Assembly (NCBI GenBank): GCA_040220875.1
Contig: JAVJVX010000006.1
Coordinates: 62,001-126,000 of the forward strand
Length of the DNA stretch: 64,000 nt
Direction: 5' to 3'
DNA from: Alphaproteobacteria bacterium
Lineage (GTDB): Bacteria > Pseudomonadota > Alphaproteobacteria > JAVJVX01
This document shows positions 6,544-57,027 of the stretch, one piece after another; the first letter of the stretch is position 1, and each line of letters begins with the position of its first letter. Made by a program: the position numbers and the translations under genes. A model generated the notes under the pieces. It searched no databases and was not told the origin of the DNA. It saw nothing but the letters and a program-made list of their open reading frames with translations.

Positions 6544-7305
6544 ATGACACGGCTTCTCTCCGATCGGCAGATTTCCGACTTCAAGCGCGACGGGTTTCTC
6601 GTCGTGCGTAGCATGTTCGATGACGCGACATTGGCGAAAATCGAAAGCTGGAGCCGCGGGTTGGAAGAGGCGGCGGACCGGCCCGATTATGTCTGGAAAT
6701 ATTACGAGGACAGCCTCACACAGCTCGGCACGAAGGTACTGAACCGGATCGAGAATTTCTGCGCCTACCATGACGAGTTCAGCGCCTTCGTGCGCGGCCC
6801 TCGCATGGCGGGGCCGGTGGGTGAGCTGTTCGGCGAGGAGGCGGTCCTGTTCAAGGACAAGATCAACCTGAAACGCCCCGGCGGCAGCGGCTTCACGCCG
6901 CATCAGGATGTCCAGGCTGGCTGGGACAGCTACGCCCCCTTCTTTATCACCATGCTGGTCAGCATAGACCGGGCGACCGCGGAAAACGGCTGCCTGGAAC
7001 TGGCGGCCGGGTTTCACGACAAGGGGCTGATCGGCGATTACTGGGCGCCGCTAACGGAACGGGACATGGCGGACATGACCTTCGTGGCCTGTCCGACCGA
7101 GCCGGGCGACGTGGTGTTCTTCGATTCTTTCGCCCCGCATCGTTCGGGACCGAATCTGAGCTCCCATCAGCGCCGCGTGCTGTACATCACCTACAATCCG
7201 GCTTCGGACGGCGATCACCTCGCCCGGTACTACGCCGAAAAATTCGCCTCCTACCCGCCGGATGTCGCGCGCGACCCGGACAGGGACTACCGCTTCAAGG
7301 TCTAG
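6544..7305 (+). CDS. PhyH-family Fe(II)/2-oxoglutarate dioxygenase
   Basis: 253-residue non-heme iron oxygenase of the phytanoyl-CoA dioxygenase superfamily. The iron triad is visible as HQD in GFTPHQDVQA (about residue 119) and the distal His of FAPHRSGPN, followed by the 2-oxoglutarate-binding Arg in SHQRRVLYITY. The C-terminus (ARYYAEKFASYPPDVARD) resembles members annotated as small-molecule dioxygenases, including the 2-aminoethylphosphonate hydroxylase type (PhnY*), rather than acyl-CoA enzymes. That is a resemblance, not proof. It starts 6 bp after ctaA and may be co-transcribed. A phosphonate substrate would fit the pepM cluster 19 kb away, but is inference. Confidence 0.8.
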   Translation: MTRLLSDRQISDFKRDGFLVVRSMFDDATLAKIESWSRGLEEAADRPDYVWKYYEDSLTQLGTKVLNRIENFCAYHDEFSAFVRGPRMAGPVGELFGEEAVLFKDKINLKRPGGSGFTPHQDVQAGWDSYAPFFITMLVSIDRATAENGCLELAAGFHDKGLIGDYWAPLTERDMADMTFVACPTEPGDVVFFDSFAPHRSGPNLSSHQRRVLYITYNPASDGDHLARYYAEKFASYPPDVARDPDRDYRFKV

Positions 7306-18130: not shown

Positions 18131-18826
18131 TCACCTGGCGCCCGGGCCGTGCGAGCGGGGCATGGTTTCGCGCACCTGCTGAAAGGCCGTCCAGAGCGCA
18201 AAGACCACCGCGCCCGCCGCGGCCAGAACGAAAAACACCGCCAGTCCGCCGAGCCAGGTGGCCGGTGCCAGAAGATAGATGCCGTCCTCGAGGTCGAATC
18301 TGCCAAACCGCGGATAGTCGCCCGCTGCCTGCCCCATCCCGTCCGATCCGCCATCCGGCCCTCGCCCGACGCGCGCCTGCCTGGCGGTCACGCGAAGCAG
18401 CATATGCGCGAAGCCCGCCAGGACACCCAGCACGGTCAGTACGAGCGCGGCCGCACCAAGCCAGCTATCCGACAGGCCTATCCCTATACCGATGAAAAGC
18501 GCCGCGTAGGACAGTGCGCCCGCGACATAATCGTAGCGCGCGCCCAACCGGCTGGCGGTTCCCTGCATACGCGCCAACTCTCCATCGCCGTGATCGAGAA
18601 AACGGGCGAGCACGAACAACCCGGCCGCGACATGAATGGCCGGGCCATGTCCCGTGGCGAAGAGGACCGCCGCCACGAGGCAAAGAATGAGAGTTGCCGT
18701 GGTCACGTGATTGGGAGCCAACCGGCTGTTCACGAAGGGCCGCATCAGCCAGCGGGCGAGCCGCTGGTCGTAGGCCCCGGGGTTATCGGCGTCTGCAATG
18801 CGACGGGACATTCTTTCGTTCCGCAT
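18131..18826 (-). CDS. CDP-alcohol phosphatidyltransferase family protein (copy 1, D4 missing)
   Basis: 231-residue integral membrane protein with about six helices. The family motif D-x2-D-G-x2-A-R-x8-G-x3-D-x3-D reads DHGDGELARMQGTASRLGAR then YDYVAG: the first three Asp are present but the fourth, the proposed catalytic base, is Gly. It is clearly paralogous to the gene at 20995-21645 (shared QRLAR..MRP start and EDxxYLLAPxxWLGG near the C-terminus). Such enzymes normally swap CMP for an alcohol or lipid. The ATG at 18826 has GGAG at good spacing; a GTG at 18835 is also possible. Substrate unknown; a phosphonate head group is suggested by context only. Confidence 0.82.
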   Translation of the reverse strand: MRNERMSRRIADADNPGAYDQRLARWLMRPFVNSRLAPNHVTTATLILCLVAAVLFATGHGPAIHVAAGLFVLARFLDHGDGELARMQGTASRLGARYDYVAGALSYAALFIGIGIGLSDSWLGAAALVLTVLGVLAGFAHMLLRVTARQARVGRGPDGGSDGMGQAAGDYPRFGRFDLEDGIYLLAPATWLGGLAVFFVLAAAGAVVFALWTAFQQVRETMPRSHGPGAR

Positions 18827-18860
18827 GGCACTCACTCCATAACTGTCGAGCAGGCGTGCC

Positions 18861-18986: not shown

Positions 18987-19985
18987 TCAGGTGGCGGGCG
19001 GCGGGCGATGGCGCCACAAACGCTTGCCCTCGGCCAGTTGCCAGGCAAGGAGGGCGGGAAGGCCGAGGACAAGCTCGCGCACGCGCTTGACCAGCGACAG
19101 GGCCAACGCGAGCTCGGGCCCGATGCCGATCATGGCGCCGAGCGCCACCAGGCCAACTTCCTGCACGCCGAGTCCGGCCGGCACGAAAAACGCGGCCCCG
19201 CGCGCGGCCTGGCTCAGGCTTTCGAGCATCACGGCCTCCATCAGGGTGACGGGATGACCGAGGAAATACATGGCGAGCCATACTTCGCCGGCGCCAATCA
19301 CCCAGCTTGCGAGCCGCCAGACGCTCGACCAGAAAAGCGCGCCAAGCCGACGATAAGCGGCGACGATCTCGTCATCGAGCGCGGCCGCTCCACCGGAGAG
19401 GGCCATAAACTCGCGCCCGCCCGCGACTTTTTCGAGCGCCCGCGCGAGCACCAGGAAGAGCCCGTAATGCTGGGCGACATAAAACCCGACGAACAACAGC
19501 GAAAAAACGCCGAGCCCGAACAGCAGCCCCTGGCCCAGGTTGCGGCTTTCGCCGGCATCGGCCACGAGGTAAAGGGCAGCGACGCCCATCAGGGAGAAGA
19601 TCACTTGCGTGAAAACGCCGATCGTCATGTCGACGACGACCGTGGCACCCCCGACCGGCCCCCGGACTCCTGCCTGACTGATGAGACGGGCGCGCACGAA
19701 TTCGCCGCCAAGCTGGGCGACGGGAAGAAGCTTGTTGACCGATTCGGCCACCCAGCGCGTCCAGGTAAGGGTGAACGTGCGGGGGCGATCGGTGGGCCGA
19801 AAGACATGGGCCCAGGCGAGCACATCCGCGATCAGCGGGAAGACGTGAAACGCGCTGACCCAGAACAGTCCCCAGAATCCGGCCAGCGCCATCGCATCCA
19901 GCACCTCCCCTCCGCCGTAATAGGCGATCAGCGCGATCACGGCGGTAAATCCGAGGAAGGCGAGCACCCAGCCTGCCTTGTTCAT
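18987..19985 (-). CDS. hpnL: HpnL-like membrane protein (lysylphosphatidylglycerol synthase TM/flippase family)
   Basis: 332-residue multi-pass inner-membrane protein with about eight helices, of the UPF0104/LPG-synthase transmembrane family. The regions GGEFVRARLISQAG and AGLGVQEVGLVALGAMIG are typical of the family, and the length and hopanoid context match the HpnL subgroup. Role unproven; family members are suspected lipid translocases. The ATG at 19985 overlaps the hpnA stop (ATGA), so it is translated with hpnA. Confidence 0.82.
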   Translation of the reverse strand: MNKAGWVLAFLGFTAVIALIAYYGGGEVLDAMALAGFWGLFWVSAFHVFPLIADVLAWAHVFRPTDRPRTFTLTWTRWVAESVNKLLPVAQLGGEFVRARLISQAGVRGPVGGATVVVDMTIGVFTQVIFSLMGVAALYLVADAGESRNLGQGLLFGLGVFSLLFVGFYVAQHYGLFLVLARALEKVAGGREFMALSGGAAALDDEIVAAYRRLGALFWSSVWRLASWVIGAGEVWLAMYFLGHPVTLMEAVMLESLSQAARGAAFFVPAGLGVQEVGLVALGAMIGIGPELALALSLVKRVRELVLGLPALLAWQLAEGKRLWRHRPPPAT

Positions 19986-20998
19986 GAGCCTTTGCCGCTT
20001 TGCCCTGTCCCGAGATAGCCTGCCTGCCGGAACCAGTCGATCGCATCGACAAGCGCCTCGCGTGCGGGGCGCGGCTTGAAGCCCAGCTCATGTCGTGCGC
20101 GGTCGGCCGAGAAAAACATGGTTTTCCGGGCCATGCGCACACCGTCACGGGTGACACGCGGTTCGCCCCCGCGCGTGAGACGCGCCCAGCCCTCCGACAG
20201 ATAGGCAACCGGCATGATCAGATTGTGTGGCAGCCTGACCATCGGCGGCCTGCCGCCTGTCAGGTCCGCAATGTCGCGGAGAATCTCCTTCAGATACAGA
20301 TTCTCCGCACCGAGAATATAGCGTCGCCCCGGAACCCCCTTCTCAAGCGCCAGGAGATGGCCCTCGGCGACATCATCGACATGCACGACGTTCAGTCCGG
20401 TATCCACATAGGCGGGCATCCGCCCCGCCGCCGCATCGAGAATCATACGGCCGGTGGGAGTCGGTTTGACGTCAAAAGGCCCGACGGGCGCCGCCGGATT
20501 GACGAGACGCACCGGAATCTTCTCGTCGCGCACGAGCGCCATGACCGCTTCTTCCGCAAGAAACTTCGACCGCTTGTAGTGGCCGATCATGCCGGAAGCG
20601 GTCGACGGCGTCTCTTCGTCCGCCGGGCGGCCGTCGGGGTGAAGTCCCAGTACGGCGACGCTGCTGGTGTAGACGATGCGATCGATTCCCGCCTCCGCCG
20701 CGGCCAGTATGATATTGCGGCTGCCTTCAACATTGGCGGCATAGATCGTCGGCGGGTCCGGTACCCAGAGCCGGTAATCGGCCGCCACGTGGAAAAGCGT
20801 GTCGGTCCCCCGGACCGCCGCCCGCACCGAATCGCGGTCGGTCAGATCGCCCGTCACAACCTCGACATCGAGTCCGGCAAGCGCCCGGCGATCGCTGGTC
20901 GGCCGGGTCAGGACACGCACGCTCTCGCCCGCCGCCAGAAGCCGGCGAACCACGGCCGAGCCAACGAAACCTGTCCCGCCAGTGACCAGGCTGGTCAT
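19982..20998 (-). CDS. hpnA: Hopanoid-associated sugar epimerase HpnA
   Basis: 338-residue extended short-chain dehydrogenase/epimerase. It has the NAD site VTGGTGFVGSAVVRRL at the N-terminus, VYTSSVAVLG, and the catalytic Tyr-x3-Lys in HYKRSKFLAEE. FHVAADYRLW and RLVNPAAPVGPFDVKPTPTG are characteristic of the HpnA group. The substrate is unknown; it is probably a nucleotide sugar or lipid-linked sugar. Both ends overlap neighbours by ATGA, placing it inside the hpnN operon. Confidence 0.9.
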   Translation of the reverse strand: MTSLVTGGTGFVGSAVVRRLLAAGESVRVLTRPTSDRRALAGLDVEVVTGDLTDRDSVRAAVRGTDTLFHVAADYRLWVPDPPTIYAANVEGSRNIILAAAEAGIDRIVYTSSVAVLGLHPDGRPADEETPSTASGMIGHYKRSKFLAEEAVMALVRDEKIPVRLVNPAAPVGPFDVKPTPTGRMILDAAAGRMPAYVDTGLNVVHVDDVAEGHLLALEKGVPGRRYILGAENLYLKEILRDIADLTGGRPPMVRLPHNLIMPVAYLSEGWARLTRGGEPRVTRDGVRMARKTMFFSADRARHELGFKPRPAREALVDAIDWFRQAGYLGTGQSGKGS

Positions 20999-21645
20999 GA
21001 GGGGCGGTCCGGCGTGCCGGCGGCCGCGCGCCGGTGGCGCAGGAGGTCGCGCCCGGCGAGGGCGAGCACGATCACCGCGCCAACGGGTGCACCGATGGCG
21101 GCGGCCATCAGCAGGTACTCGATACCGCCAAGCCAGATGACCGGCGCGAGGAGGTAGAGCATATCCTCGGGCTCGACGCCGCCCTTGATCTTCTGGCGGA
21201 CGTGGTGGCTGCCGATAATCTCCTCAAGCGCCAGGCGGGCGCCAAAAATCACGGCACAACCAAGACCCGCAACGATGCCCATCCAGATCGCCGTCGCCCC
21301 GAGATGGCCCTGGGCCAGCCCGATCCCCATGCCGACCCACACGCTCGTGTAATTGAAAACCGCCTGCACATGATCGAAGTAATGCCCCGCGCGGCTGGTC
21401 TTGCCGGTCATGCGGGCCAGTTCGCCATCGGTGTGGTCCATGAAGATCGCCAGCACATAGACGAACACGGCCAGGTTCTGGACCGTGCGGTCGATACCAA
21501 GCGCGAAGAGCCCGGCCGCGACCGCACCCAGCCCCAGCCCCAGCGCCGTCAGCCAATTGGGATGGAGCGCCGTGCGCGCCAGCGGGCGCACCAGAATCCG
21601 CGCCAGTTTCTGATCGAGGGCGATGGTTTCGCCGTCAGTGCCCAT
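20995..21645 (-). CDS. CDP-alcohol phosphatidyltransferase family protein (copy 2, D4 missing)
   Basis: 216-residue membrane protein with six predicted helices. Its motif reads DHTDGELARMTGKTSRAG then HYFDHVQA, so the fourth Asp of the family signature is Ala. It is paralogous to the gene at 18131-18826. The ATG at 21645 has a strong GAGGAGG ribosome site and overlaps the upstream nucleotidyltransferase gene by 11 bases. That pairing suggests the nucleotidyltransferase makes its CDP- or CMP-linked donor. The acceptor could be diacylglycerol, inositol phosphate or a hopanoid polyol; nothing in the sequence decides. Confidence 0.82.
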   Translation of the reverse strand: MGTDGETIALDQKLARILVRPLARTALHPNWLTALGLGLGAVAAGLFALGIDRTVQNLAVFVYVLAIFMDHTDGELARMTGKTSRAGHYFDHVQAVFNYTSVWVGMGIGLAQGHLGATAIWMGIVAGLGCAVIFGARLALEEIIGSHHVRQKIKGGVEPEDMLYLLAPVIWLGGIEYLLMAAAIGAPVGAVIVLALAGRDLLRHRRAAAGTPDRPS

Positions 21646-22399
21646 AATCGGCCTCCTCGATGGCCCGGATCGCGGGCATGACCTCCCGCTCCGCTCGGAC
21701 GAGGTCTTCCGGAAAATCTATCTCCAGCCACGGGTAGCCCGTGACATCCTCGTAGCCGAACGTGCCGGCCGGGCTGTCCATCAAAAGATCCCGGATGGCT
21801 TCCTCATACCATTCCTCGCGTCGCCCGGTCGCCAGATAGGCCTCGGCGCGCGCCGCCAGGCGACGGCCGAACTCACCCGAAAACCGGAAAAACCCCACGG
21901 ATTCGCCCGCGAAATCGTACGCGTTCCGAACCCGCTTGTGGAAATCCACAATATGGCCGTCCTGGATGCAGAGTTTAACCGGTTCCGCCCCCGGTTCGAA
22001 ATCGCGATCCATCAAAAAGCAGTTGGCGTGCCGTGTTCGCGTCAGGCGGTCGATCAGGCGGCGATCGTAAAGCACGTCGCCATCCATCAGCAGAAAATCA
22101 CGGCCTTCACGAAGCCGGTCGGCCAGGCAGGCCAGGCTGACGACACTGCCCTCCTCATAATCGGGATTATGGATCAGTTCGACCCGCGCGCGGGCGCCCA
22201 GCCTGTCGAGCTCGGCCTCGATGTCGCGATGGCGGTAGCCCACGACCATGACGAGGCGCTCGATGCCGGCTGCGGCCAGGATATTGAGATGACGGGCCAG
22301 CAGGGTCTGCCCGGCGATGCGCAACAGAACCTTGGGCGGTGCGTCGTCGCCCGCACCGAGGCGCCGTCCCTTGCCGGCAGCCAGCATCAGCGCCTTCAT
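21635..22399 (-). CDS. LicC-like nucleotidyltransferase
   Basis: 254-residue NTP-transferase-fold enzyme of the phosphocholine cytidylyltransferase/sugar nucleotidyltransferase type. It has the nucleotide loop MLAAGKGRRLG then PPKVLL, a metal-binding DGD in LLMDGDVLYD, and WLEIDFPEDLVRA near the C-terminus. It lies between hpnN (ATGA overlap) and CDP-alcohol phosphotransferase copy 2 (11-bp overlap), so it probably supplies an activated alcohol phosphate or phosphonate to that enzyme. This is distinct from the nucleotidyltransferase domain fused to PepM at 25928-27598. Substrate unknown. Confidence 0.82.
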   Translation of the reverse strand: MKALMLAAGKGRRLGAGDDAPPKVLLRIAGQTLLARHLNILAAAGIERLVMVVGYRHRDIEAELDRLGARARVELIHNPDYEEGSVVSLACLADRLREGRDFLLMDGDVLYDRRLIDRLTRTRHANCFLMDRDFEPGAEPVKLCIQDGHIVDFHKRVRNAYDFAGESVGFFRFSGEFGRRLAARAEAYLATGRREEWYEEAIRDLLMDSPAGTFGYEDVTGYPWLEIDFPEDLVRAEREVMPAIRAIEEADYGH

Positions 22400-25056
22400 A
22401 AGCGTCCCGCCCGTCGGCGCGCGCGAAGATCGAGCAGGGCCGGGAGAACGACCAGCGTCGCCACCAGCGTGAACAGGATCGCGAGGCTCAGGAGCAATCC
22501 CATGCTGGCGGTTCCGCGGTGGCTGGAAATCGCCAGCGAACCGAACGACCCCACAGTGGTCAGGGCGCTGAACATGACCGCGCGCGGGGTCGAGCTTGCG
22601 AGCAAATCCTGGGTAGTTGCACTCTCGCGGCTGCGCAGCACGAGATGGATCGCGCTCGCGACACCAAGCCCCAGCAGCAGCGGCAGCACGATGACGTTAG
22701 CGAAGTTGAAGGCCTGACCCAGCAGAACCGATGTCGCCGCGGTAAGTATGGCCGCAAGGGCGAGCGGACCGAGCACGAGAAGTGTGTCGGCGAAACTGCG
22801 CAGCACAATCACCAGCAGGATTGTGATACCGATCAGCGCGATCACCAGCGCCTCGACCAGCGCCTTAACGACCGCGCGGCCCGACTCCAGAAGAATGACC
22901 GGGCTGTCCGTGGCATCGGGCGCGACTGCGCGCACGGCCTCGACAAAGCGGGTGAGACTTTCATTATCGCGCAGATCATCTCGGGGCAGAACCTCCACGC
23001 GAGCACGGCCATCAGCCGCCATATAACGCGCCACCAGCGAATCGGGCAGATCGTCCGGCACTACCCCTTCGGTCGAAAGCGCCAGGCGAAGATCGGCCAG
23101 ACGTTCGTCGAGACCGCCAAGCAGGCGGTTCTCCAGGTCCAGGAAGTCGGCGTCATCGGGTTCGGCCAGAAGAAACTGATCGAACGCATCGGCGAGATAG
23201 GCGGCCGCCTCCGAGAGTTCGGGAAAGCGATCGAGGGCGGCGAGACTGACCACGCTCTGACGCAGGGATCTCACGGCTGCGCGCCGATCGAGCGGCGATT
23301 CGGGCGTCACTTCGGCCGGCGCCAGGGCCGGCCCCAGAAACAGAACCGCCTCGGCGACAAGCTCCAGCTTTACGCCCTGGTTCGCCGGTACGAAGCTGGC
23401 GGCAGTAATGGTGCCATCCACTTCCGGCAACGCATCGAGGCGGGACGCGATCGCCCAGGCCTCGCCCAGATCGGGCGCGAGGACGCTGATCGTATAGACC
23501 GGCTGGTCGCTCGCTTCCGTCAGATCGGCGAGCGTCCGCATGCTTTGGGTCTGCGGGTCGCGCAAACTCAGCGTATCGAAATCGAACCGGGCCGCGGGCA
23601 GGACCGTCAGGCTTGCGAGAGCGGCCAGCAGGGCGAGGGCGAGCACCGGCCGGGGCTGACGCGCCAGCCAGGTGAGCGCCGGCGATGTCGCCCGTGCCGA
23701 CTTGGCGGGTGAAACCTTCACCACCGGAAACCGTGGCGGCCAAAGCCTCAGCAGAGCGGGCAGGACCGTCAGACTGGCCACCAGGGCAATCGCCATGCCG
23801 GCGCTCGAAATGACCCCCAGCTCGGAAATTCCGACGTAGCTGGTCGGTACGAACGAGAGAAAGCCGATCGCGGCCGCAACTGCACTCAGCGTCAGCGCGG
23901 CGCCGACGCCGCGCGCCGAGAGGGCCAGCGCCTCGTCGGGTGCGGAGCCGGCGCGCGCCGCTTCGCGGTAGCGCAACGCGAAATGGATGGCGAAGTCCAC
24001 GCCCAGCCCGATGAACAGCACCGCGAAAGCCACGGAGATGAGATTGAGATGGCCGATGGCAAGCGTCGCGAAGGCGGCCGTCCAGACCAGCCCCATGATG
24101 AGCGTCACCAGGGCCGCCGCCACCATTCTGAACGAGCCCAGCCCCACGACCAACAGCACGCTGACCAGAACCAGCGAGATCAGCGCGGCCGTCTCGGCCC
24201 CCGCGGCGACGCTTTCGAGCTCTTCCGTCTCGAGAGCGGCCGAGCCGGTGATCCCGATCTTCACGCCATTTTGCGGGACCAGCCCGAGGTCGCGCTGCGC
24301 CTCGCGGATCCATTCCATGGCCGGCCGGGCGGGGTCGAGCCTGCCGTAATCGAGCACCGGCTGGGCCACGATGATGCGCCGGCGGGCCTCGGCCACATCG
24401 GCGGGCGATTCCATGACCTCGCGCCAGGGCATGCGGCCCGGCTGGTCCCGGCTGGCCTTGTCCACGACCGCGCCCATGTGATCGAGAAACAGCTCGAAAT
24501 CGCCGGGGGCCTCTTCGCCGCGCCCGATTTCGCGGGCCGCCTCGGCCATGACCGTGGCAAGCCCCCTGAGGCTCAGGTCTTCCGTCAGGCTGGCGATGAG
24601 GGGCTGGGCCTCGGCGAGACGGGCCAGCAGCCGGTCCAGATCGTCGACGTCCAGATAAAGGAGGCCGTGCTTGCGGAAAAACGGGTCCCCCGCGGGGTAG
24701 AAGACGGATTTGAACCGCCCCGCCCCTTTTTCGCCCATTTCTGCGCGCATTTTCCCGACCAGGAGGCGCGCTGCCGTGTCGGCCCGGTCGGCCGTCGCCC
24801 CGTCGACCACGAGCACGATATTGTCGGCGAACTGCGGAAACGCCTCCTTGTAGGCGATATAGGTCTGGCGGTAATCCAGGTCCCGCGAGAGCATGTCGGC
24901 CGTATCGGTGTTGATCTTGAGGCCGCTAGCGGTGATATATCCGGCACCGGCGGTCACGACCAGGGCCGCGAGGATCACGATCAGGGCGTGTTGCTGCACA
25001 CGGCCGACCCAACGGGCGAGAAATGAAACATAGGCGTCGACAAGGGATTGGATCAT
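22396..25056 (-). CDS. hpnN: Hopanoid transporter HpnN (MMPL/RND family)
   Basis: 886-residue RND-family inner-membrane protein proposed to move hopanoids to the outer membrane. There are two repeats, each a single helix, a large periplasmic loop and five further helices. The first loop starts GLKINTDTADMLSRDLDYRQ, and the first helix block has VDFAIHFALRYREAARAG, with Asp in a membrane segment. The second block has ATSVLLGQAFNFANVIVLP and GVASAIHLVLRSRE. It is the first gene of the minus-strand operon and divergent from hpnM. Confidence 0.92.
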   Translation of the reverse strand: MIQSLVDAYVSFLARWVGRVQQHALIVILAALVVTAGAGYITASGLKINTDTADMLSRDLDYRQTYIAYKEAFPQFADNIVLVVDGATADRADTAARLLVGKMRAEMGEKGAGRFKSVFYPAGDPFFRKHGLLYLDVDDLDRLLARLAEAQPLIASLTEDLSLRGLATVMAEAAREIGRGEEAPGDFELFLDHMGAVVDKASRDQPGRMPWREVMESPADVAEARRRIIVAQPVLDYGRLDPARPAMEWIREAQRDLGLVPQNGVKIGITGSAALETEELESVAAGAETAALISLVLVSVLLVVGLGSFRMVAAALVTLIMGLVWTAAFATLAIGHLNLISVAFAVLFIGLGVDFAIHFALRYREAARAGSAPDEALALSARGVGAALTLSAVAAAIGFLSFVPTSYVGISELGVISSAGMAIALVASLTVLPALLRLWPPRFPVVKVSPAKSARATSPALTWLARQPRPVLALALLAALASLTVLPAARFDFDTLSLRDPQTQSMRTLADLTEASDQPVYTISVLAPDLGEAWAIASRLDALPEVDGTITAASFVPANQGVKLELVAEAVLFLGPALAPAEVTPESPLDRRAAVRSLRQSVVSLAALDRFPELSEAAAYLADAFDQFLLAEPDDADFLDLENRLLGGLDERLADLRLALSTEGVVPDDLPDSLVARYMAADGRARVEVLPRDDLRDNESLTRFVEAVRAVAPDATDSPVILLESGRAVVKALVEALVIALIGITILLVIVLRSFADTLLVLGPLALAAILTAATSVLLGQAFNFANVIVLPLLLGLGVASAIHLVLRSRESATTQDLLASSTPRAVMFSALTTVGSFGSLAISSHRGTASMGLLLSLAILFTLVATLVVLPALLDLRARRRAGRL

Positions 25057-25103
25057 CGGTGGCTTCTCGACTTAACCAAGGACGCACCCTGCGGGGCGGG
25101 CTG

Positions 25104-25799
25104 GTGACCGTGATCCGTCAGAGGTCGCGCCGGGCGCGCCAATGGGGCGGCGCGCTCCTGGCGCTTTCCCTGCTTATAGCCTCTGGCGTGGAAGCCGGGC
25201 AAGGTACCGCCACCAATGTGGCTCAGATCGCCGGCACCACGGCTCGTGACAGCGCGGAGCAGACCGCTCGCCTCACGGTCGAGAATTTTCACGCCACACT
25301 CCTGAACATGATGCAGGAGGCCGAGCTTCTGGGATATGAGGGGCGGTACAAATGGCTGGAGCCCGCGATACATGAGAGCTTCGCTCTTGAATTCATGGCC
25401 CGCGTCGTTGCCGGCAGCAAGTGGCGCCAGTTGTCGGAAAGCGACCAGGAGCGGCTTTCCAAGGCCTTTGCGCGGATGACGGTGGCCACCTATGCCTCGC
25501 GCTTCAGCGGGTTCAGCGGTGAAACCTTCAAGACCCTGGGGGTCGAGGACGCGCCGCGCGGCACCAAGCTGGTCAAGACCCACCTGGTCAAGTCGGATGG
25601 CAGCACGGTGTCACTCAATTACGTCATGCGCGGCGACGGAAACTGGCAGGTGGTCGATATCTACCTCGATGGCCGGATCAGCGAGCTGGCGACCCGGCGT
25701 TCGGAATACAGCTCCGTCCTGCGCAATCACGGGATCGAGGAACTGCTGCGCCGGATCGATGCACGGATCGCCGATCTGGCCAGCGACGAGGCTTCCTGA
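25104..25799 (+). CDS. hpnM: HpnM / MlaC-family periplasmic lipid-binding protein
   Basis: About 231 residues. The N-terminal basic and hydrophobic stretch ([22 protein letters not shown]) is a signal peptide. The mature part has [21 protein letters not shown] and [19 protein letters not shown] with [10 protein letters not shown], the pattern of MlaC/Ttg2 auxiliary proteins. The open frame extends to an ATG at 25023, which would overlap the divergent hpnN start, so the GTG at 25104 is preferred; the start is uncertain. It probably binds and shuttles a lipid across the periplasm for HpnN. A phosphonate operon follows 128 bases later on the same strand. Confidence 0.83.
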
Positions 25800-25927: not shown

Positions 25928-27598
25928 ATGGTGAAGGCCGTCAATTTCATTCGTCATCTGCGCCAGCCGGCGGCGCCCACGAAAGCGGGCCAGTTGCGTC
26001 AGCTTCTCTACGCGCCCGAGCTTTCCTTTCTGATGGAGGCGCATAACGCGCTTTCGGCCAAGCTGGTCGAGGAGGCCGGATTTGGCGGGATCTGGGCCTC
26101 AGGGCTTTCCATGTCGGCCGCGCTCGGCGTGCGCGACAGTAACGAGGCGAGTTGGACTCAGATCCTCGAAGTGCTCGAGTTCATGTCCGACGCCACGACG
26201 GGGCCGATCCTGGTCGACGGCGATACCGGGTATGGCAATTTCAACAATGTCCGGCGTCTCGTGAAAAAACTGAGCCAACGCGACATCGCCGGTGTCTGCC
26301 TCGAGGACAAGCTCTTTCCGAAAACCAACTCCTTCATCGGCGAAGGCCAGCCGCTGGCCGATATCGACGAGTTCTGCGGCAAGATCAAGGCGGGCAAGGA
26401 CAGCCAGCTCGACGACCAGTTTTGCGTGATCGCACGGGTCGAGGCGCTGATATCCGGCTGGGGGCTCGAGGAGGCGCTGCGCCGGGCCGAAGCCTACCAC
26501 GATGCCGGCGCCGACGCGGTGCTCATCCATTCCAAGAAAAAAAGCCCCGACGAAATCTTCGCCTTCATGCGTGAATGGGGCCAGCGTGCCCCCGTGGTCA
26601 TCGTGCCCACCATGTATTACACAACACCCACGCAACGCTTCCGGGACGAGAAAATTTCCACCGTCATCTGGGCCAATCATGGCCTCCGGGCTGCCATCAC
26701 GGCGATGCGCGAGACGTATCACGAGATTCTTGAGGCCGAGAGCCTGATGGAGGTGGAAGGCCGGATCGCCTCGGTCAGGGATATCTTCGATCTCGCCGGC
26801 AACCAGGAACTCTCGCAGGCGGAAAAACGCTATCTGCCGCAGGATGCCGACCGGCCGGGGGCAATCGTGCTGGCCGCCTCGCGCGGGGCGGCCCTGGGCG
26901 AGCTCACGGCCGATCAGCCGAAATGCATGGTGGATGTGCGCGGGCGGCCCCTGCTGCACCGCCTTGTCAGCACCCTGCGCGAAGGCGGCATCCGGGATAT
27001 CGCCGTCGTGCGCGGTTATCAGAAGGACAAGATCGACCTGCCGTCGGTCGCGACCTACGACAATGACGACTATGAAACCACGGGCGAGTTGCATTCGCTG
27101 GCCCGCGCCGCCGACAGGCTGACCGGCCCCAGCGTCATCACTTACGGCGATATCCTGTTCCGCCGCTATCATCTCGACAACCTGCTGGATACACCGGGCG
27201 ACATCGTGGTGGTGGCCGATGCCTATTGGCAGAAGCGCGATGTCGCGCGCGAACATCGGGTATCGGACCTGGTGCAATGCTCTCGCCCCTTCACCGGCGA
27301 TTATCTGGCCGACGAGGCACCCGTCCATCTGGAGGAAATCGGCGATCATCTGCCGCCGACCCATACTCACGGCGAATGGGTCGGGCTGGTCAAGCTCAGC
27401 GCCGCCGGGGCCGAGATGGTGAAGACGGCGCTGGCCGCGATGGCGGATGGTGCGGAGGGACTTGGCCGGAAGGGCATGCCCGATCTGATGAACCACCTCA
27501 TCAGGCAGGGCCACAAGCCGCGCGTCGTTTACGTCACCGGCCACTGGCTCGACGTGGATGACGCCTTCGACCTCGCCAATGCGCGGAACTTCCTGTAG
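25928..27598 (+). CDS. Phosphoenolpyruvate phosphomutase fused to nucleotidyltransferase
   Basis: 556 residues. Residues about 1-290 are PEP mutase, which forms the C-P bond of phosphonopyruvate. All marker residues are present: [27 protein letters not shown] (metal-binding Asp) and [10 protein letters not shown], the EDKxxxxxNS signature that separates PepM from isocitrate lyase-like enzymes. Residues about 305-556 are an NTP-transferase domain with [20 protein letters not shown] and [13 protein letters not shown]. The usual AAGxG loop reads AASRG. PepM-nucleotidyltransferase fusions are known to go with CMP-activated phosphonates (PntC type). The ATG at 25928 follows GACGAGG. An upstream in-frame ATG at 25880 is less likely. 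Confidence 0.93.
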
Positions 27599-27607
27599 CG
27601 TCCGGCC

Positions 27608-28747
27608 ATGATTGAGGCCGACGGGTTTCTCGCCCCCGCACGCGCGCGGGGCATCGACTTCTTCACCGGCGTCCCCTGCTCCTTCCTGACACCGATCATC
27701 AATCGCGTCATTTCCGACCACGCCCTCCACTACGTGGGAGCGGCAAATGAGGGCGAGGCGGTCGCAATCGCGGCCGGGGCCTGGCTTGCCGGGCGCGGGA
27801 CGGCCGTGATGTGCCAGAATTCGGGGCTTGGCAACATGGTGAACCCGCTCACCAGCCTGAACTTCGCCTTCCGGATCCCGACATTGCTGATCGTCACCTG
27901 GCGCGCGCAGCCCGGCCTCAAGGACGAGCCGCAGCACGAGCTCATGGGCCAGATCACGCCCGATCTGCTGGAACTCATGCGCATCCCCCATCTGCTGTTC
28001 CCGACCGAGGCGGACCAGGTGGTGCCGGTGCTGTCGGAAGCGCGGCGCATGATGGACCGGACGGATCTGCCGGTGGCGCTCATCATGCAAAAGGACAGCG
28101 TGCGCGATGACGGGCTGGACGAGCCCGAACTTCCACGCCGGCCGCGCGGGACGCTCACCGATCTGACGACGGGCGGCGCGCGGGTGCGCCGCGTCGAGGC
28201 GCTCGAGGCATTTCTGGCGCATAACAGCGCCGCCCATCCCGTCATCGCGACGACCGGCAAATCCGGGCGCGAGCTGTTCACGCTCGACGATCGCGAAAAC
28301 CACCTCTACCAGGTGGGGTCCATGGGCTGCGCCTCGGCGATGGGGCTGGGCCTGGCGCTGAACACGGAAAAACCCGTCTTCGTGCTCGATGGCGACGGCG
28401 CGCTGCTGATGCATATGGGGGTGATGAGCACGATCGGCGCGCGCCATCCCGGAAAATTCATCCATATCGTGCTCGATAACGGGGTGCACGATTCCACCGG
28501 CGGCCAGCGCACCGATTCGGCCCATGTGGACTTTGCCGCCATCGCCCTCGCTGCCGGCTACGATTGCTCTTTCGTCACTGACGATATCGGCGGCTTTGAG
28601 GCCGCGCTGAGACAGGCCGCCACCGCCGGCGGTCCGGCGCTCGTGCATATGCGGATCGCACCCGGCTCGATCAGCGGGCTCGGCCGGCCCACCATCACAC
28701 CCCCCGAGGTGGCCCGCCGCTTCCGGGACTGCATTGCGCGCGCCTGA
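27608..28747 (+). CDS. Phosphonopyruvate decarboxylase
   Basis: TPP-dependent enzyme that decarboxylates phosphonopyruvate to phosphonoacetaldehyde and so pulls the unfavourable PEP mutase reaction forward. 379 residues. It has FFTGVPCSFLTP and YVGAANEGEAVAIAAGAWL at the N-terminus, where the Glu would activate TPP. It also has the TPP/metal motif LDGDGALLMHMG with downstream LDNGVHDSTGGQ. It starts 9 bases after the PepM fusion. No transaminase or alcohol dehydrogenase for phosphonoacetaldehyde follows; the next genes are on the other strand. Confidence 0.93.
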   Translation: MIEADGFLAPARARGIDFFTGVPCSFLTPIINRVISDHALHYVGAANEGEAVAIAAGAWLAGRGTAVMCQNSGLGNMVNPLTSLNFAFRIPTLLIVTWRAQPGLKDEPQHELMGQITPDLLELMRIPHLLFPTEADQVVPVLSEARRMMDRTDLPVALIMQKDSVRDDGLDEPELPRRPRGTLTDLTTGGARVRRVEALEAFLAHNSAAHPVIATTGKSGRELFTLDDRENHLYQVGSMGCASAMGLGLALNTEKPVFVLDGDGALLMHMGVMSTIGARHPGKFIHIVLDNGVHDSTGGQRTDSAHVDFAAIALAAGYDCSFVTDDIGGFEAALRQAATAGGPALVHMRIAPGSISGLGRPTITPPEVARRFRDCIARA

Positions 28748-29626: not shown

Positions 29627-30436
29627 TCAGGCCGGCACCACTCGCCGGGTGCTGTAGCGCCGCAGGCTGGCGATGACGGAAAGCGCCGTCAGCTTGCTCG
29701 TCTTGGGATTGATGCTGGGGACGTTGGCCAGTTCCACCCTGAGTTCGCCGAACGGCCCCTTGGCATGGAGTTCCACCGTGTTGCGCGACACGGCCGGATC
29801 GGCGATCACCTGCACCCTGGTCCGGTCGAACCCGGCGCCCGCCAGCGCGAGCGCGGCGGCGATATTGGAATTGCGCGGGAAGCGCAGCGCCGTGTCCCGC
29901 GCGGTCCCGTCATAGAGCACCTGCTCGGCCGTCACCTTCACGGCTTCGGCCGGCTCCAGGAGCGCTGCCGGCGGCTTGCGCTGTATGAGGGTGACCCGGT
30001 CAAACCCCTCGGAAGCCGCGGCCGAGATCGCGTCCAGCCCCGCGATGGCGCCCGAGGGGACGAGGATTTTGCCGCCGCCCGTTTCCGCCGCCCGGTCGAG
30101 CGCCGCCTCGATATCCCGCTCGGCCAGGGTCGAGACCGACAGGCAGAGGAGATCGATCCCGCGGGCAAGCACCTCGGGCCCGAAGCGGGCGAGCACTTCG
30201 GCGCCCGCCGCCTCGATCACGAGGCGCGGGGCACGGGCGAGAAGGGCCTCGAAATCGAGGCAGAGGAGATCGGCCGGCGGGAGCGAGGCCGCCCCCTCGT
30301 CCCGCGTGAAAACACCGACGAGGCGGACGTCCGGCGCCTTGCCCGCCTCGAGCAGGCGCAGCACGTCACGCCCGATGGCGCCATAGCCGATCAGGCCGAC
30401 GGGAAGGGGCTGGCGAACACTGGAATCTTCGGTCAC
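29627..30436 (-). CDS. nadX: L-aspartate dehydrogenase (NadX type)
   Basis: Oxidises aspartate to iminoaspartate, an oxygen-independent entry to NAD synthesis. 269 residues from a GTG start preceded by GAGGA. It has the NAD site VGLIGYGAIGRDVLRLLE, ILVPSGAIAGLDAI and LRFPRNSNIAAALALAGAG, which are diagnostic for the AspDH family. The frame stays open to 30730, and the ATG at 30517 would add 27 low-complexity residues; the GTG fits the family length better. It is divergent from the Rrf2 regulator, so the palindromes between them could affect both. Confidence 0.88.
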   Translation of the reverse strand: MTEDSSVRQPLPVGLIGYGAIGRDVLRLLEAGKAPDVRLVGVFTRDEGAASLPPADLLCLDFEALLARAPRLVIEAAGAEVLARFGPEVLARGIDLLCLSVSTLAERDIEAALDRAAETGGGKILVPSGAIAGLDAISAAASEGFDRVTLIQRKPPAALLEPAEAVKVTAEQVLYDGTARDTALRFPRNSNIAAALALAGAGFDRTRVQVIADPAVSRNTVELHAKGPFGELRVELANVPSINPKTSKLTALSVIASLRRYSTRRVVPA

Positions 30437-30622
30437 GACGTCGTCCTCGCTGGCGCCCGGCGGGCGACCGCCGGGAGCGCGACCATACGGCCCTGGCGGG
30501 CCGCACCCAAGCGCCATCGTGGGCTCAGGGCCGATCCGGGGTTTTCGGGTGTCGATCAGAGCGTGCACGGATTTCCGGTGGCGGCGTTCTTGACTCTCGC
30601 TGCCGGGCTCTCTATCTAAAAG

Positions 30623-30637
30623 GCACCAAATTGGTGC
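30623..30637. promoter_or_regulatory. Palindrome 1, candidate operator for the Rrf2 regulator
   Basis: GCACCAAATTGGTGC: two perfect 7-base arms around one central base, 88 bases before the regulator gene. Symmetric sites of this size are typical of dimeric Rrf2-type repressors, which often autoregulate. It does not match the textbook IscR type 1 or type 2 sites, so binding is inferred from position and symmetry only. Confidence 0.55.
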
Positions 30638-30650
30638 TATTTGGCAGCCA

Positions 30651-30666
30651 TGGCGGAATTCCGCCA
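30651..30666. promoter_or_regulatory. Palindrome 2, candidate operator for the Rrf2 regulator
   Basis: TGGCGGAATTCCGCCA, a perfect 16-base palindrome 44 bases before the regulator start and about 28 bases centre-to-centre from palindrome 1. The two sequences share little beyond a central AATT-like core, so they may bind different proteins or two states of one protein. Confidence 0.55.
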
Positions 30667-30710
30667 ATTTTTGCCGCCAGCAGCACCGGAAGAGGAGCCG
30701 GGAGAACAGG

Positions 30711-31184
30711 ATGATCCGTCTGAGCCGCATGGCCGATTACAGCGTGATTGCGATGAGCCGGCTGGCCCAGCGCCCGGACCGCCAGTTCACGGCGGCCGAG
30801 CTGGCCCATGAAACGGCCCTGCCCCAGGCCACCGTCAGCAAAATCCTGAAGCTGCTGAGCCATGCCGGACTCCTCACCTCTCAGCGCGGCCCCCGAGGCG
30901 GCTACAGCCTGGCCGAGGATGCGGCCGACATCCCGGTCGCCCATATCATCGCCGCCGTCGACGGCCCCATCGCCCTGACGGAGTGTTCGAGCGACGGCGA
31001 GACGTCGTGCAACCTCGAATCCCTCTGCCCGACGAGCACCGCCTGGAAAAAAATCAACACCGCGATCAACCAGGCGCTCGACAACCTGACCCTGGCCGAT
31101 CTTTCGGCCCCCGATCTGATCTTCCCCGACCCGACCCGACCCGTGCCGGCGCCGACGGTCATCAAACAAGACGAACGAGTGTAA
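30711..31184 (+). CDS. Rrf2-family SUF regulator
   Basis: 157-residue winged-helix regulator that senses Fe-S status and controls the following suf operon. It has [20 protein letters not shown] at the N-terminus, the recognition region [19 protein letters not shown] and [11 protein letters not shown] (wing). The Fe-S ligands are probably the three Cys in [10 protein letters not shown] and SLCPTS, at about residues 92-106. It starts 10 bp upstream of sufB, so it is the first gene of the operon and probably autoregulated. Confidence 0.9.
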
Positions 31185-54558: not shown

Positions 54559-57027
54559 CTAGTAACCGTCACCCTCGGGCCCGGGGCCGAAGCCGGGTCG
54601 GCTGGACGCCCGACGGGCGGACGGATGGCCAGGACCGGCATCCCCATAGCCATCCCCATTGCCATCCCCATTGCCATTGCCATTGCCATTGCGATTGCCA
54701 TCCGCGCCCGCCTCCGGCTCGCCATCACCATCGCCCGCCGGGCCGGCGTCGAGCTGGATATGGGCCGGCGGCGCGTTGCCCTGCTGGTCCACACCAAAGT
54801 AGATCGTGCGATGGGGAAACGGAATTTCGATTCCAAGTTCATCGAACCGCGCCTTCATGCGCCGGTTGAATTCCCGACCCACGGCCCATTGCTGGATGGG
54901 CTCGGTCGTGATGCGCGCCTTGATGATCACCGCATTGTCGCCGAAGGAATCGAGGCCGAGAATTTCGAGCGGTTCCTTGATCAGCGGCCCGTATGTCTCG
55001 TCCTTCTGCATCTCGTCACTGATTTCGTGCAGCACACCGGCCACCTGATCGTAATCCTCACGATACGCAACGCCGATATTGAAGAGATAGCGCGAATAGT
55101 CCTTTGTCATATTCATCACGCTATCGACGGTACTGAAGGGAATCGTGTGCACATTGCCCGAAAGATCGCGCAAGCGGATCGAACGGACACTCATCGATTC
55201 CACAATTCCGGAATGATTGCCGAGCTCCACCACATCGCCGATCGAAATCGTATCCTCGGCCAGGATGAAGCCACCCGTGATGACGTCCTGAACCAGTTTT
55301 TGCGCCCCAAAGCTGACCGCAAGTCCCGCGACTCCGGCGCCGGCGATGAGCGGCGTGATATTTACGCCGAACTGGTCGAGCAGCATGAGCGCCACGACGA
55401 TCACAAGCACGATGAACGCGACGCGCCGGATCATGGGCAGAAGCGTTTGCAGGCGAGCCGCCCGGCGCCCGTTCTCCGCCGCCTCACTGAGGCTGCGCAG
55501 CCGGCGTTCCAGCTCGATACAGAAGGCATTCCAGGCGACGATCGCCAGGGTCAGGACCAGAAGGACGGTAAGCGTCTGCCCGATAAAGTTCTGGCCGCCC
55601 GCCGAGGCGAGCCAGTCGATCGTGCTGAGGCCCCAGACCTCCAGAATCGCGATGAGGGCGATCAGGTTGATCACGGTTCGGACAGCGCCCTGAAAAACCG
55701 GCAGGAAGCGGTTGGTCCGTTCCTCGAGAGTGGGAAAGCGGCTCTTGAGGTCGTTCGAGAATGCAAGCGCACGATTAAGCGCCGTGCGCACTGCCAGACG
55801 AATGAGACGCGCCAGCAGCAGGACGAACACGCTCAGAAGCGTGGCGCGGGCAACATAGGCAAAGCCCCCTTCGGTATTTGCCAGCCAGACCGCGAGCACC
55901 GCCAGGATGTAGAAAATCGCCGCGATGTGCCAGAAATCCGACAGCCGGCTGGCCACGGCATGAACGCTTGCCGGCAGCCCGCCGGTTTCGGCCTGTTCCT
56001 TGCGGAGCCAGTCCGCCACCTGGCCCCGCGACTGAAAGACCACGACGATCAGCAGCGCCGCGATGATGAGGCCCAGAAAATCGGTCAGCGCAGTCTGCGC
56101 CGGGACCGCGAGCCCGGCCGCGCCGGCGGCCATGATGGCGGCGTATCCATAGACCGAGATCCGCACGAGCCGCTTGACCCAGACATATTGGTAGACGGCG
56201 CTCTGATCCGTCAGGCCGACGAAGCGAAGCCGTGCCGTGCGAGGCGCGTAAAACGCCCGCGCGGCCGCCGAGACGGCCCGCTCGATCAGGCTTGCGTTGA
56301 TGAAGACCAGGGCCACGAGACGGGCTTCCGCCTCGAGCGCGACGAGGGCAAGGGCGGCCTGGGCGCCGGCCCAAAACAGCCCGATCGGAATCACATCGAG
56401 AACGGTGCGCAAGGCCAGAACGAGGGCGCGGCTTCCCAGACCCGGCACGGGCCAGGCTTCCACGGTGCGTCGGGGGTGGCGCAGCGCCCATCGGGCCAGT
56501 TCCTCGGCGGCGAAGCCGGCGGCGAGAATGAGCACGAGGTATCCCAGGGCAAGCCAAAGTCGGCCCTGCACGTCGGGGTTCTGCGCGCTTTCCCAGAGCC
56601 GGCCAAGACGGTCGGGAAGCTCGATAAAGAGTCGGGCGGTATCCGCGAGCGAAACGGCGGCGGCCTCGATCCGGGCGGCGGCAGCCCGGGCGGCCCCCTC
56701 GAAAATGCCGCTCTCCGGCGCCGCGGCCGCCGGGCCGGCCGCATCCCCTTGTGCGGCCTTTGCGTCCGTCGCCTCGAGGGCTTTCAGGCGATCGAGCAGC
56801 TTCTGGCGCTTGGCATCGTCCTCGAGGGTTTCGATGAGGGCCTGAATCCCCGCCTGCTCCCCGCTTCCCGCCGCCGGGGGCGCCGCCATCGACTGCGCCA
56901 GCGCGTTGCCCGGGGCAAGGGGGACGGCAAGCAGAAGCACCAGAAGCAACAGGCCGGAGAGAGCGCGCGTGCGCAACCGGCCGACAGGGCCGGGCGGGAT
57001 CGCCATCTTCCGGTCAGGCTGTCTCAT
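54559..57027 (-). CDS. Large MscS-family mechanosensitive channel
   Basis: 822 residues from the ATG at 57027 (open frame reaches 57117). It has a signal peptide, a periplasmic helical part, about ten membrane helices, and the MscS core near residues 560-730: GAGVAGLAVSFGAQKLVQDV (pore helix), then IGDVVELGNHSGIVESMSVR and IPFPHRTIYF. It resembles the long MscK/YbdG-like types. The C-terminal 60 residues are a Gly/Asn/Asp-rich tail encoded by a hexanucleotide repeat at 54641-54702. A long frame on the other strand spans the gene and is treated as non-coding. Confidence 0.9.
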   Translation of the reverse strand: MRQPDRKMAIPPGPVGRLRTRALSGLLLLVLLLAVPLAPGNALAQSMAAPPAAGSGEQAGIQALIETLEDDAKRQKLLDRLKALEATDAKAAQGDAAGPAAAAPESGIFEGAARAAAARIEAAAVSLADTARLFIELPDRLGRLWESAQNPDVQGRLWLALGYLVLILAAGFAAEELARWALRHPRRTVEAWPVPGLGSRALVLALRTVLDVIPIGLFWAGAQAALALVALEAEARLVALVFINASLIERAVSAAARAFYAPRTARLRFVGLTDQSAVYQYVWVKRLVRISVYGYAAIMAAGAAGLAVPAQTALTDFLGLIIAALLIVVVFQSRGQVADWLRKEQAETGGLPASVHAVASRLSDFWHIAAIFYILAVLAVWLANTEGGFAYVARATLLSVFVLLLARLIRLAVRTALNRALAFSNDLKSRFPTLEERTNRFLPVFQGAVRTVINLIALIAILEVWGLSTIDWLASAGGQNFIGQTLTVLLVLTLAIVAWNAFCIELERRLRSLSEAAENGRRAARLQTLLPMIRRVAFIVLVIVVALMLLDQFGVNITPLIAGAGVAGLAVSFGAQKLVQDVITGGFILAEDTISIGDVVELGNHSGIVESMSVRSIRLRDLSGNVHTIPFSTVDSVMNMTKDYSRYLFNIGVAYREDYDQVAGVLHEISDEMQKDETYGPLIKEPLEILGLDSFGDNAVIIKARITTEPIQQWAVGREFNRRMKARFDELGIEIPFPHRTIYFGVDQQGNAPPAHIQLDAGPAGDGDGEPEAGADGNRNGNGNGNGDGNGDGYGDAGPGHPSARRASSRPGFGPGPEGDGY
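54641..54702. repeat. Hexanucleotide repeat tract in the channel gene tail
   Basis: About ten imperfect copies of GCCATT/CCCATT/GCCATC in a row, coding on the minus strand for NGNGNGNGDGNGDGYGD. Six bases per unit means that copy-number change adds or removes residue pairs without a frameshift. Confidence 0.9.

Follow-up and report, generated by a model that had tools for sequence, protein, structure and literature searches.

How phosphonoacetaldehyde is used is the question raised by this locus of an alphaproteobacterium (genome completeness 99.18%). Genes for PEP mutase (PepM) and phosphonopyruvate decarboxylase (Ppd) stand side by side in the 64,000-nucleotide stretch analysed (the window), yet no transaminase or iron alcohol dehydrogenase of the families searched adjoins pepM or occurs in the window. 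The initial annotation had noted this gap, proposing that the enzyme is encoded elsewhere or that the nucleotidyltransferase fused to PepM uses another phosphonate, and had cautioned that 2-aminoethylphosphonate (AEP) could not be assumed as the head group. We propose, with a probability of roughly 55%, that scattered genes support aminophosphonate tailoring of a membrane lipid via the AEP transaminase PhnW, a PhyH-type oxygenase and a second nucleotidyltransferase (NTase2).

The pepM-ppd locus and its neighbours

The PEP mutase and decarboxylase assignments hold, both proteins scoring above their family cut-offs in profile searches (Table 1). The PepM translation also contains a ten-letter stretch matching EDKXXXXXNS, given as the PepM motif in the available text of Rice et al. 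2019 (PMC6697681), so that the TIGR02320 cut-off and the motif both place it among PEP mutases. The HpnM gene, in the same orientation, directly precedes pepM, and genes for a pterin dehydratase, FolB and an aspartate dehydrogenase lie downstream of ppd. The aspartate dehydrogenase (29627-30730) was rejected as a pathway gene, as it had no tblastn match at 1e-5 in relatives' loci. At the same threshold and in the same loci, many of them short, the pterin dehydratase had no match and FolB a single one, in L043. FolB is a folate enzyme, despite its Pfam name of dihydroneopterin aldolase.

Table 1. Features of the window, with profile scores in bits and family cut-offs
Feature	Position	Strand	Evidence
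PhyH-family 2-oxoglutarate/Fe(II) oxygenase, candidate phosphonate (AEP) hydroxylase	6544..7305	+	PF05721, 86.1 (cut-off 22)
CDP-alcohol phosphotransferase 1; fourth signature Asp replaced by Gly	18131..18835	-	PF01066, 42.9 (cut-off 22); motif; tree
HpnL-family membrane protein (LPG synthase TM / flippase-like)	18987..19985	-	TIGR03476, 322 (cut-off 195.65)
HpnA, hopanoid-associated epimerase-type SDR	19982..20998	-	TIGR03466, 496.5 (cut-off 367.65)
CDP-alcohol phosphotransferase 2; fourth signature Asp replaced by Ala	20995..21645	-	PF01066, 41.4 (cut-off 22); motif; tree
NTase2, second MobA-like nucleotidyltransferase, PntC-like	21635..22399	-	Profile match to 6pd1
HpnN, hopanoid RND-like transporter	22396..25056	-	TIGR03480, 968.1 (cut-off 751.85)
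HpnM, MlaC-like	25023..25799	+	TIGR03481, 198.6 (cut-off 160.1)
PEP mutase (N-terminal) fused to MobA-like NTP transferase domain (about 26840-27598)	25928..27598	+	TIGR02320, 387.3 (cut-off 319.55); PF12804 (NTP_transf_3), 44.3 (cut-off 27)
Phosphonopyruvate decarboxylase (Ppd)	27608..28747	+	TIGR03297, 425 (cut-off 312.5)

In a genome-wide search, the only class V-type matches inside the window were an O-succinylhomoserine sulfhydrylase and a protein that, from its operon, we take to be SufS-like; the only class III match there was ArgD. Iron alcohol dehydrogenase (PF00465) had no match anywhere in the genome, while 13 of 14 control genomes were positive. Thus, a 2-hydroxyethylphosphonate route of the PhpC type is not indicated.

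An AEP transaminase elsewhere on the contig

The genome encodes a single PhnW (G000:C6:399176-400411, minus strand), about 310 kb from pepM on the same contig. It exceeds the cut-offs of three equivalog models (NF010006, 492.2 bits against 296; TIGR02326, 434.4 against 400.8; TIGR03301, 428.1 against 360.8), and the solved sequences closest to it are AEP transaminases (7e7g, 390 bits; 1m32, 283 bits). At the level of sequence, the identities of PepM, Ppd and PhnW are established by family membership. The suggestion that the enzyme lies elsewhere is thereby borne out, and the reported absence of a transaminase applies to the surroundings of pepM and the window, but not to the whole genome. The gap at pepM probably reflects gene order rather than chemistry, with an ordinary AEP route.

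The genome search that the initial annotation had recommended for both transaminase classes and iron alcohol dehydrogenases gave no class III candidate and no iron alcohol dehydrogenase. Of five class III transaminases, ArgD, BioA, a PRK06105-type aminotransferase and EctB each exceed a curated cut-off, and the fifth is PRK06062-like but under that model's cut-off. For none of the five do the 25 best-matching families listed include the PhnW-AepZ model. The annotation had also held that an AEP transaminase elsewhere, co-regulated with pepM, would make the route conventional. The transaminase exists, but a scan for Pho-box-like sites gave no signal beyond chance (4 matches against 2.29 expected in the window; 1 against 0.76 in L019).

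The association of PhnW with PepM extends across the class. Among 385 genomes, PhnW (E of 1e-40 or better) is present in 37 of 43 with PepM of this type, both counts including the source genome, versus 47 of the 342 others (Fisher p 4e-22, with relatedness not removed). Rows down to E 3.4e-108 were scored as PepM-positive, and weaker PepM-fold rows (E 4.5e-72 and above) were scored as not having this type; 'pepM-negative' in the tree and in the PhnX and PhnJ comparisons likewise means without this PepM type, and some such genomes hold a more distant PepM-fold protein. Two PepM-domain fragments (G007 and G311) were counted as positive without evidence of fusion. PhnW exceeds its family cut-off in 33 of the 37 genomes, and the pair occurs in 18 of 20 family codes. 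Six of the 43 PepM genomes have no PhnW match; for G343 (100% complete) and G125 (98%), incompleteness is no explanation.

Linkage is variable. In 17 of the 37 genomes the start of PhnW is less than 6 kb away from pepM; in five further ones PhnW adjoins ppd (G275, locus L134; G299; G209; G104; G146), and in G333 it adjoins HpnL and a CDP-alcohol phosphotransferase. By the contexts available, mostly from draft assemblies and lacking for G312, it is unlinked in 14. Locus L059 has nearly the gene order of the window, but with PhnW, on the minus strand, immediately after Ppd.

PhnW is catabolic in many bacteria (available text of PMC9381506), and in G199, whose PepM is among those closest to the window's, it lies next to PhnX; therefore stand-alone PhnWs are not all biosynthetic. 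That PhnW here acts on imported AEP, leaving the phosphonoacetaldehyde made by Ppd to some other enzyme, is nevertheless highly improbable. The genome has no match to PhnX (phosphonatase), and so no phosphonatase partner for PhnW, or to PhnJ (C-P lyase); its best match to phosphonoacetaldehyde dehydrogenase (PhnY), at 310.2 bits, is below the cut-off of 635.65. In the PhnW tree its sequence does not group with PhnX-adjacent PhnWs and falls in a 14-row clade made up exclusively of pepM genomes, with moderate support (80/90 and 87/88, under the tool's star). The pepM-linked PhnWs overall do not form one clade (nine label changes) in this tree, which omits duplicate loci L151, L152 and L158, together with L164, L173 and some truncated hits, has linked rows L134 and L150 relabelled by hand, and labels as unlinked four rows that actually adjoin ppd (L166, L167, L169 and L170).

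A generic dehydrogenase could in principle reduce phosphonoacetaldehyde to hydroxyethylphosphonate, and HpnA, encoded in the same cluster, is an SDR. However, HpnA scores far above its own hopanoid-family cut-off and iron alcohol dehydrogenase, the family proposed for the reduction step, is absent, making this reading barely credible. We consider AEP likely to be an intermediate of the pathway.

Proposed activation and hydroxylation of the phosphonate

In an alignment of 78 PepM-fused nucleotidyltransferase domains, K28 and D104 are present in all rows and D238 in 74. At the substrate-contact position held by Glu104 in Treponema denticola PntC, the fused domains carry Tyr (72 rows), Phe (5) or His (1), and their nucleotide loop reads A-A-[ST]-[RQ]-G-x-x-L versus G-x-G-x-R-L. 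These departures, and the presence of a PntC-like NTase2 in the same cluster, would suit a fused domain that activates a phosphonate that is neither AEP nor hydroxy-AEP, giving a second activated phosphonate or a different head group. Against this, many relatives' loci have the fused domain beside PhnW, so that the domain is compatible with AEP pathways, and iron alcohol dehydrogenase is absent from the genome; we judge the proposal decidedly unlikely. In alphaproteobacterial loci holding PhnW the fused domains are 39-58% identical to the window's, and because they share the Tyr, that residue does not discriminate. The fused domain was given up as a sole guide to the head group; its alignment with LicC and PntC lies mainly in the N-terminal half.

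NTase2 appears to be the best candidate for an AEP-type cytidylyltransferase. A profile of 17 homologues finds T. denticola PntC (6pd1) as its best PDB match (86.7 bits, E 1.6e-23, positions 2-244), compared with 52.6 bits for the inositol-1-phosphate cytidylyltransferase 2xme. D106 and E199 of NTase2 align with E104 and E196 of the T. denticola enzyme, leaving it acidic at both amine-contact positions, and D and E are kept in 36 of 36 rows. NTase2 also falls below the inositol-1-phosphate cytidylyltransferase model NF041135 (75.7 bits, cut-off 580), a weak test given that the model spans the fused synthase too. In the available text of Rice et al. 2019 (PMC6697681), the AEP-specific PntCs are Ari1348 and Tde1415, on our reading stand-alone genes not joined to pepM.

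The PhyH-type oxygenase lies 18.6 kb from pepM. Its best NCBIfam model is methylphosphonate hydroxylase (NF052437), of which it is not a member (138.8 bits, cut-off 500); all 18 aligned members of its family match this phosphonate hydroxylase model, and H120, D122 and H199 are invariant among them. Of 80 named pepM loci, 26 hold a homologue; in 17 of these it lies upstream of pepM at a distance of no more than 300 bases, and in L166, L167 and L169 the family is close to ppd/PhnW/NTase2. Thus, a hydroxy-AEP head group is possible, and from these gene associations the final head group may be hydroxy-AEP; we lean slightly towards a hydroxylated one. A plain AEP head group, with PhnW retained and the oxygenase serving something else, would fit the distance from pepM, the scores below every curated hydroxylase cut-off and the lack of the oxygenase in 24 of 38 well-flanked loci (L059 included), but sits poorly with the loci in which the family is close to pepM or its partners, and we regard it as somewhat unlikely. 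The caution against assuming AEP finds support in the oxygenase family beside pepM in relatives, a point absent from the initial annotation.

Proposed lipid transfer and relation to known clusters

CDP-alcohol phosphotransferases carry the signature D1xxD2G1xxAR...G2xxxD3xxxD4, with eight conserved residues (PMC4634129). Both of those in the window, the second encoded by a gene overlapping that of NTase2, fail it, as the catalytic fourth Asp is absent. As no canonical cluster-type copy was found and LicD (PF04991) has no match in the genome, the lipid-transfer step is uncertain.

We propose that PepM would form phosphonopyruvate, Ppd would convert it to phosphonoacetaldehyde, and the unlinked PhnW is predicted to work in the direction of AEP. 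The oxygenase probably hydroxylates AEP, whether free, activated or lipid-bound, to 1-hydroxy-2-aminoethylphosphonate; NTase2, our inferred choice of nucleotidyltransferase, probably activates the phosphonate with CTP; and the adjoining CDP-alcohol phosphotransferases probably pass it to a lipid acceptor. It is unlikely, though conceivable, that the hydroxylated aminophosphonate is carried as head group by a hopanoid or another polycyclic membrane lipid, that the phosphotransferases, as a paired lineage, transfer the CMP-phosphonate of NTase2 without the catalytic Asp, and that the fused domain serves a second phosphonate or a non-transferase role.

Known systems share parts of this arrangement. 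The Pnt clusters, in the available text of Rice et al. 2019 (PMC6697681), have in common with it the PepM-PF12804 fusion, Ppd and an AEP transaminase, and their unfused cytidylyltransferase has a candidate counterpart here in the PntC-like NTase2; here the transaminase is not clustered, LicD is missing, and CDP-alcohol phosphotransferases and hopanoid genes are found instead. Lichen Nostoc clusters (available text of PMC5987646, where hydroxy-AEP, HAEP, is among the abbreviations) match it in a CDP-alcohol phosphatidyltransferase, a 2OG-Fe(II) oxidase, an NTP transferase, pepM, ppd, an AEP transaminase and hpnL. They are drawn with the transaminase, whereas here oxygenase and transaminase are both distant and the hopanoid set is adjacent. 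Roseomonas hopene cyclase-PEP mutase clusters likewise have hopanoid genes beside pepM, ppd and an aminotransferase, and their authors propose an undiscovered terpene-phosphonate (available text of PMC8776678); unlike the window, the Roseomonas-type loci L095, L096, L098 and L099 have PhnW after ppd with just an HpnL hit between. PhnY*, an AEP dioxygenase that acts in catabolism as the partner of PhnZ (available text of PMC8154272), is PhyH-type like the window's oxygenase, whose nearest model is of the PhnY type. The window's enzyme is, however, under the model cut-off, its family sits with biosynthetic genes in relatives, and no PhnZ-like neighbour was recognised by eye.

The lack of a transaminase gene in a phosphonate cluster can mean no more than that the gene lies elsewhere, and the missing transaminase is in this respect an ordinary finding. 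Attention shifts to NTase2 as the likely activating enzyme and to what the common MobA-like domain fused to PepM may do. A hydroxy-AEP head group has already been reported in Bdellovibrio stolpii lipids (cited in the available text of PMC8154272), and attention also shifts to the possibility of such a head group in hopanoid-rich membranes.

A transaminase outside the cluster

The plus-strand genes HpnM, PepM (PEP mutase fused to a MobA-like nucleotidyltransferase domain, PF12804) and Ppd (phosphonopyruvate decarboxylase) diverge from HpnN, NTase2 (a separate MobA-like nucleotidyltransferase), a CDP-alcohol phosphotransferase, HpnA, HpnL and a second CDP-alcohol phosphotransferase. The genes further left encode a PhyH-type oxygenase, a glycosyltransferase, two squalene/phytoene synthases, an amine-oxidase-fold protein, a squalene-hopene cyclase, a nucleosidase-type protein, a radical SAM protein with DUF3463 and LytB; taken together, we read these left-hand genes as a hopanoid set. 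Elsewhere in the window a long plus-strand ORF overlaps a long minus-strand one, and a Pfam search at 1e-5 gave no match for the former.

Features of the window and the PhnW gene of the same genome
Feature	Position	Strand	Remarks
PhyH-type oxygenase	6544-7305	+	253 residues; PhyH 86.1 bits (cut-off 22)
CDP-alcohol phosphotransferase	18131-18835	-	
CDP-alcohol phosphotransferase	20995-21645	-	
NTase2	21635-22399	-	
PepM fusion	25928-27598	+	
PepM-fused domain	26840-27598	+	
Ppd	27608-28747	+	
Overlapping ORFs	54559-57150	-/+	852 aa (-), 841 aa (+)
PhnW	G000:C6:399176-400411	-	G000, the window's own genome; ~310 kb from pepM

In line with the initial annotation, neither a 2-aminoethylphosphonate (AEP) transaminase nor an iron alcohol dehydrogenase is present in the window. 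Of its two options, the one that places the enzyme elsewhere is borne out: in the assembly (2,538,109 bases, 9 contigs, completeness 99.18%), one of 10 class V aminotransferase matches is the transaminase PhnW, assigned by three curated models and closest among solved sequences to 7e7g (390 bits). The main explanation of the missing step is thus ordinary, and AEP is the best-supported intermediate. In the 20 kb surrounding PhnW, tblastn gave no other match to the cluster proteins searched, and inspection of the translated neighbours by eye revealed no recognisable phosphonate gene.

Across 385 genomes of the class, with relatedness not removed, PhnW (E 1e-40) occurs in 37 of 43 genomes with this PepM versus 47 of 342 others; by family code, the pair is found in 18 of 20. 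PhnW starts less than 6 kb from pepM in 17 of the 37 genomes having both, adjoins ppd in five more (G275, locus L134; G299; G209; G104; G146) and, in G333, has HpnL and a CDP-alcohol phosphotransferase as neighbours. None of these neighbours was seen in the remaining 14, which include the window's genome; 12 of the other 13 were read with flanks, G312 being left out. In G299, G209 and G104, pepM stands apart: the corresponding loci (L166, L167, L169) group Ppd, PhnW, the oxygenase, NTase2 and hopanoid genes but hold no pepM. Two genomes with the PepM fusion, G343 (100% complete) and G125 (98%), have no PhnW match at E 1e-40, which makes them candidates for another transaminase or for a route not involving AEP.

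Among 80 named pepM loci, 38 are well flanked (at least 6 kb either side of PepM); of these, 31 have Ppd within 10 kb of PepM, 25 an NTase2-like gene, 21 PhnW and 16 two or more hopanoid genes. Because some genomes are represented by both a named and an unnamed locus (L054 and L142, for example, are identical in the PhnW tree), these sets do not count as independent. Locus L059 matches the window in that one side carries HpnN, NTase2, a CDP-alcohol phosphotransferase and HpnA, the other HpnM, PepM and Ppd; its HpnL/CDP-alcohol phosphotransferase pair is inverted, and PhnW directly follows Ppd. Outside the Alphaproteobacteria, hopanoid genes lie near a PepM fusion in L120 (Nevskiaceae), L121 (Proteobacteria bacterium) and L114 (Nitrospirales), and NTase2 and a CDP-alcohol phosphotransferase do so in L129 (Hassallia).

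Biosynthetic or catabolic PhnW

Searches of the window's genome found no match to the phosphonatase model TIGR01422 and no PhnJ, and a phosphonoacetaldehyde dehydrogenase model gave four proteins, all below cut-off. Among the 43 genomes with this PepM, one exceeds the TIGR01422 cut-off and two have PhnJ; among the 37 PhnW genomes without it, the counts are 9 and 16. A tree of 73 PhnW-type proteins places the window genome's PhnW, with moderate support (80/90 and 87/88), among 14 rows that are all from genomes with this PepM: nine inside the pepM locus, one adjoining ppd (L170) and four elsewhere, this one included.

The PepMs closest to the window's are those of G199, G087, G369 and G291, whose PhnWs form part of a separate 16-row group. 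As that group also holds rows without this PepM, PhnX-adjacent rows and one linked row (L086), dual use of PhnW is possible in these four genomes. In G199, PhnW adjoins the phosphonatase PhnX (C23:6005-7935); given its PepM, a single PhnW may there both make and break AEP. Two Stappia loci (L118, L125) carry two different PhnW-type genes within 21.6 kb around pepM, placed in different parts of the tree.

Activation and transfer

Rice et al. (PMC6697681) state that ~33% of PepM proteins carry a fused PF12804 domain, that Ari1348 and Tde1415 showed AEP-specific cytidylyltransferase activity, and that nucleotidyltransferases in their clusters are both ppm-fused and one or two genes away; we assume that the separate genes encode the assayed enzymes. 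The best PDB match to a profile built from 17 NTase2 homologues is the Treponema denticola enzyme (Tde; 86.7 bits, whole domain covered), ahead of LicC (58 bits) and inositol-phosphate cytidylyltransferase (52.6). Tde Glu104 and Glu196, which according to the same paper lie close to the amine of AEP in its product complex, align with NTase2 Asp106 and Glu199 (counted on the profile alignment), which are D and E in 36/36 rows. The PepM-fused domain profile scores 55 bits against Tde (6pd1). It retains Lys (78/78 rows) and the presumed metal Asps (78/78 and 74/78), shows Tyr or Phe in place of Glu104 in 77/78 and Arg at the GxGxRL loop position in 2/78, and conserves an [ST][RQ]GxxL loop instead. 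We therefore favour NTase2 as the probable activating enzyme. Among the open-licence PMC papers listed by our searches, we noticed none dedicated to a biochemical test of the fused domain.

Five PF01066 proteins are encoded in the genome; the three outside the window are taken, from motif and sequence, as PgsA/PssA-type housekeeping enzymes. Neither window copy has the fourth Asp of the signature, which probably acts as catalytic base and whose change to Asn nearly abolished the activity of a PIP synthase (PMC4634129). In a 55-row tree, Asp-less proteins form two lineages conserved in relatives, one with Gly (18 rows plus two nested rows with Asp) and one with Val/Ala (5 rows, support 100/95). 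The Asp-intact clade common as a partner in relatives is separate (23 rows); none of the five proteins falls there, leaving no canonical cluster-type copy found in this genome, and a search of it for LicD found none.

The oxygenase and the head group

The best NCBIfam model for the oxygenase is the PhnY-type methylphosphonate hydroxylase (138.8 bits, below the cut-off of 500), matched by all 18 aligned family members; its neighbours in the PDB are several PhyH-type oxygenases, and none of these carries the name of a phosphonate enzyme. Homologues occur in 26 of the 80 named loci and 14 of the 38 well-flanked ones, and are absent from the other 24, L059 among them. Seventeen loci place the homologue 117-280 bases from pepM, divergently in 15 and co-directionally in 2; in L166, L167 and L169 the homologue lies between ppd and NTase2. 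PhnY* converts AEP to (R)-1-hydroxy-AEP, and hydroxy-AEP is cited as a lipid head group in Bdellovibrio stolpii (both in PMC8154272). We infer that the oxygenase may hydroxylate AEP or an AEP derivative, possibly as a hydroxy-AEP synthase. Since plain AEP is no more likely as head group than a hydroxylated form, the initial caution against assuming AEP deserves to stand for the head group, although AEP is still favoured as intermediate.

Published descriptions include a lichen Nostoc kit of CDP-alcohol phosphatidyltransferase, 2OG-Fe(II) oxidase, NTP transferase, pepM, ppd, AEP transaminase and hpnL (PMC5987646), and a hopene cyclase-PEP mutase linkage in Roseomonas, for which a terpene-phosphonate was suggested (PMC8776678). 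The window holds the same kind of gene set, with transaminase and oxygenase displaced. Its PhyH-type oxygenase, PepM-fused domain and Asp-less phosphotransferases are worth a second look.
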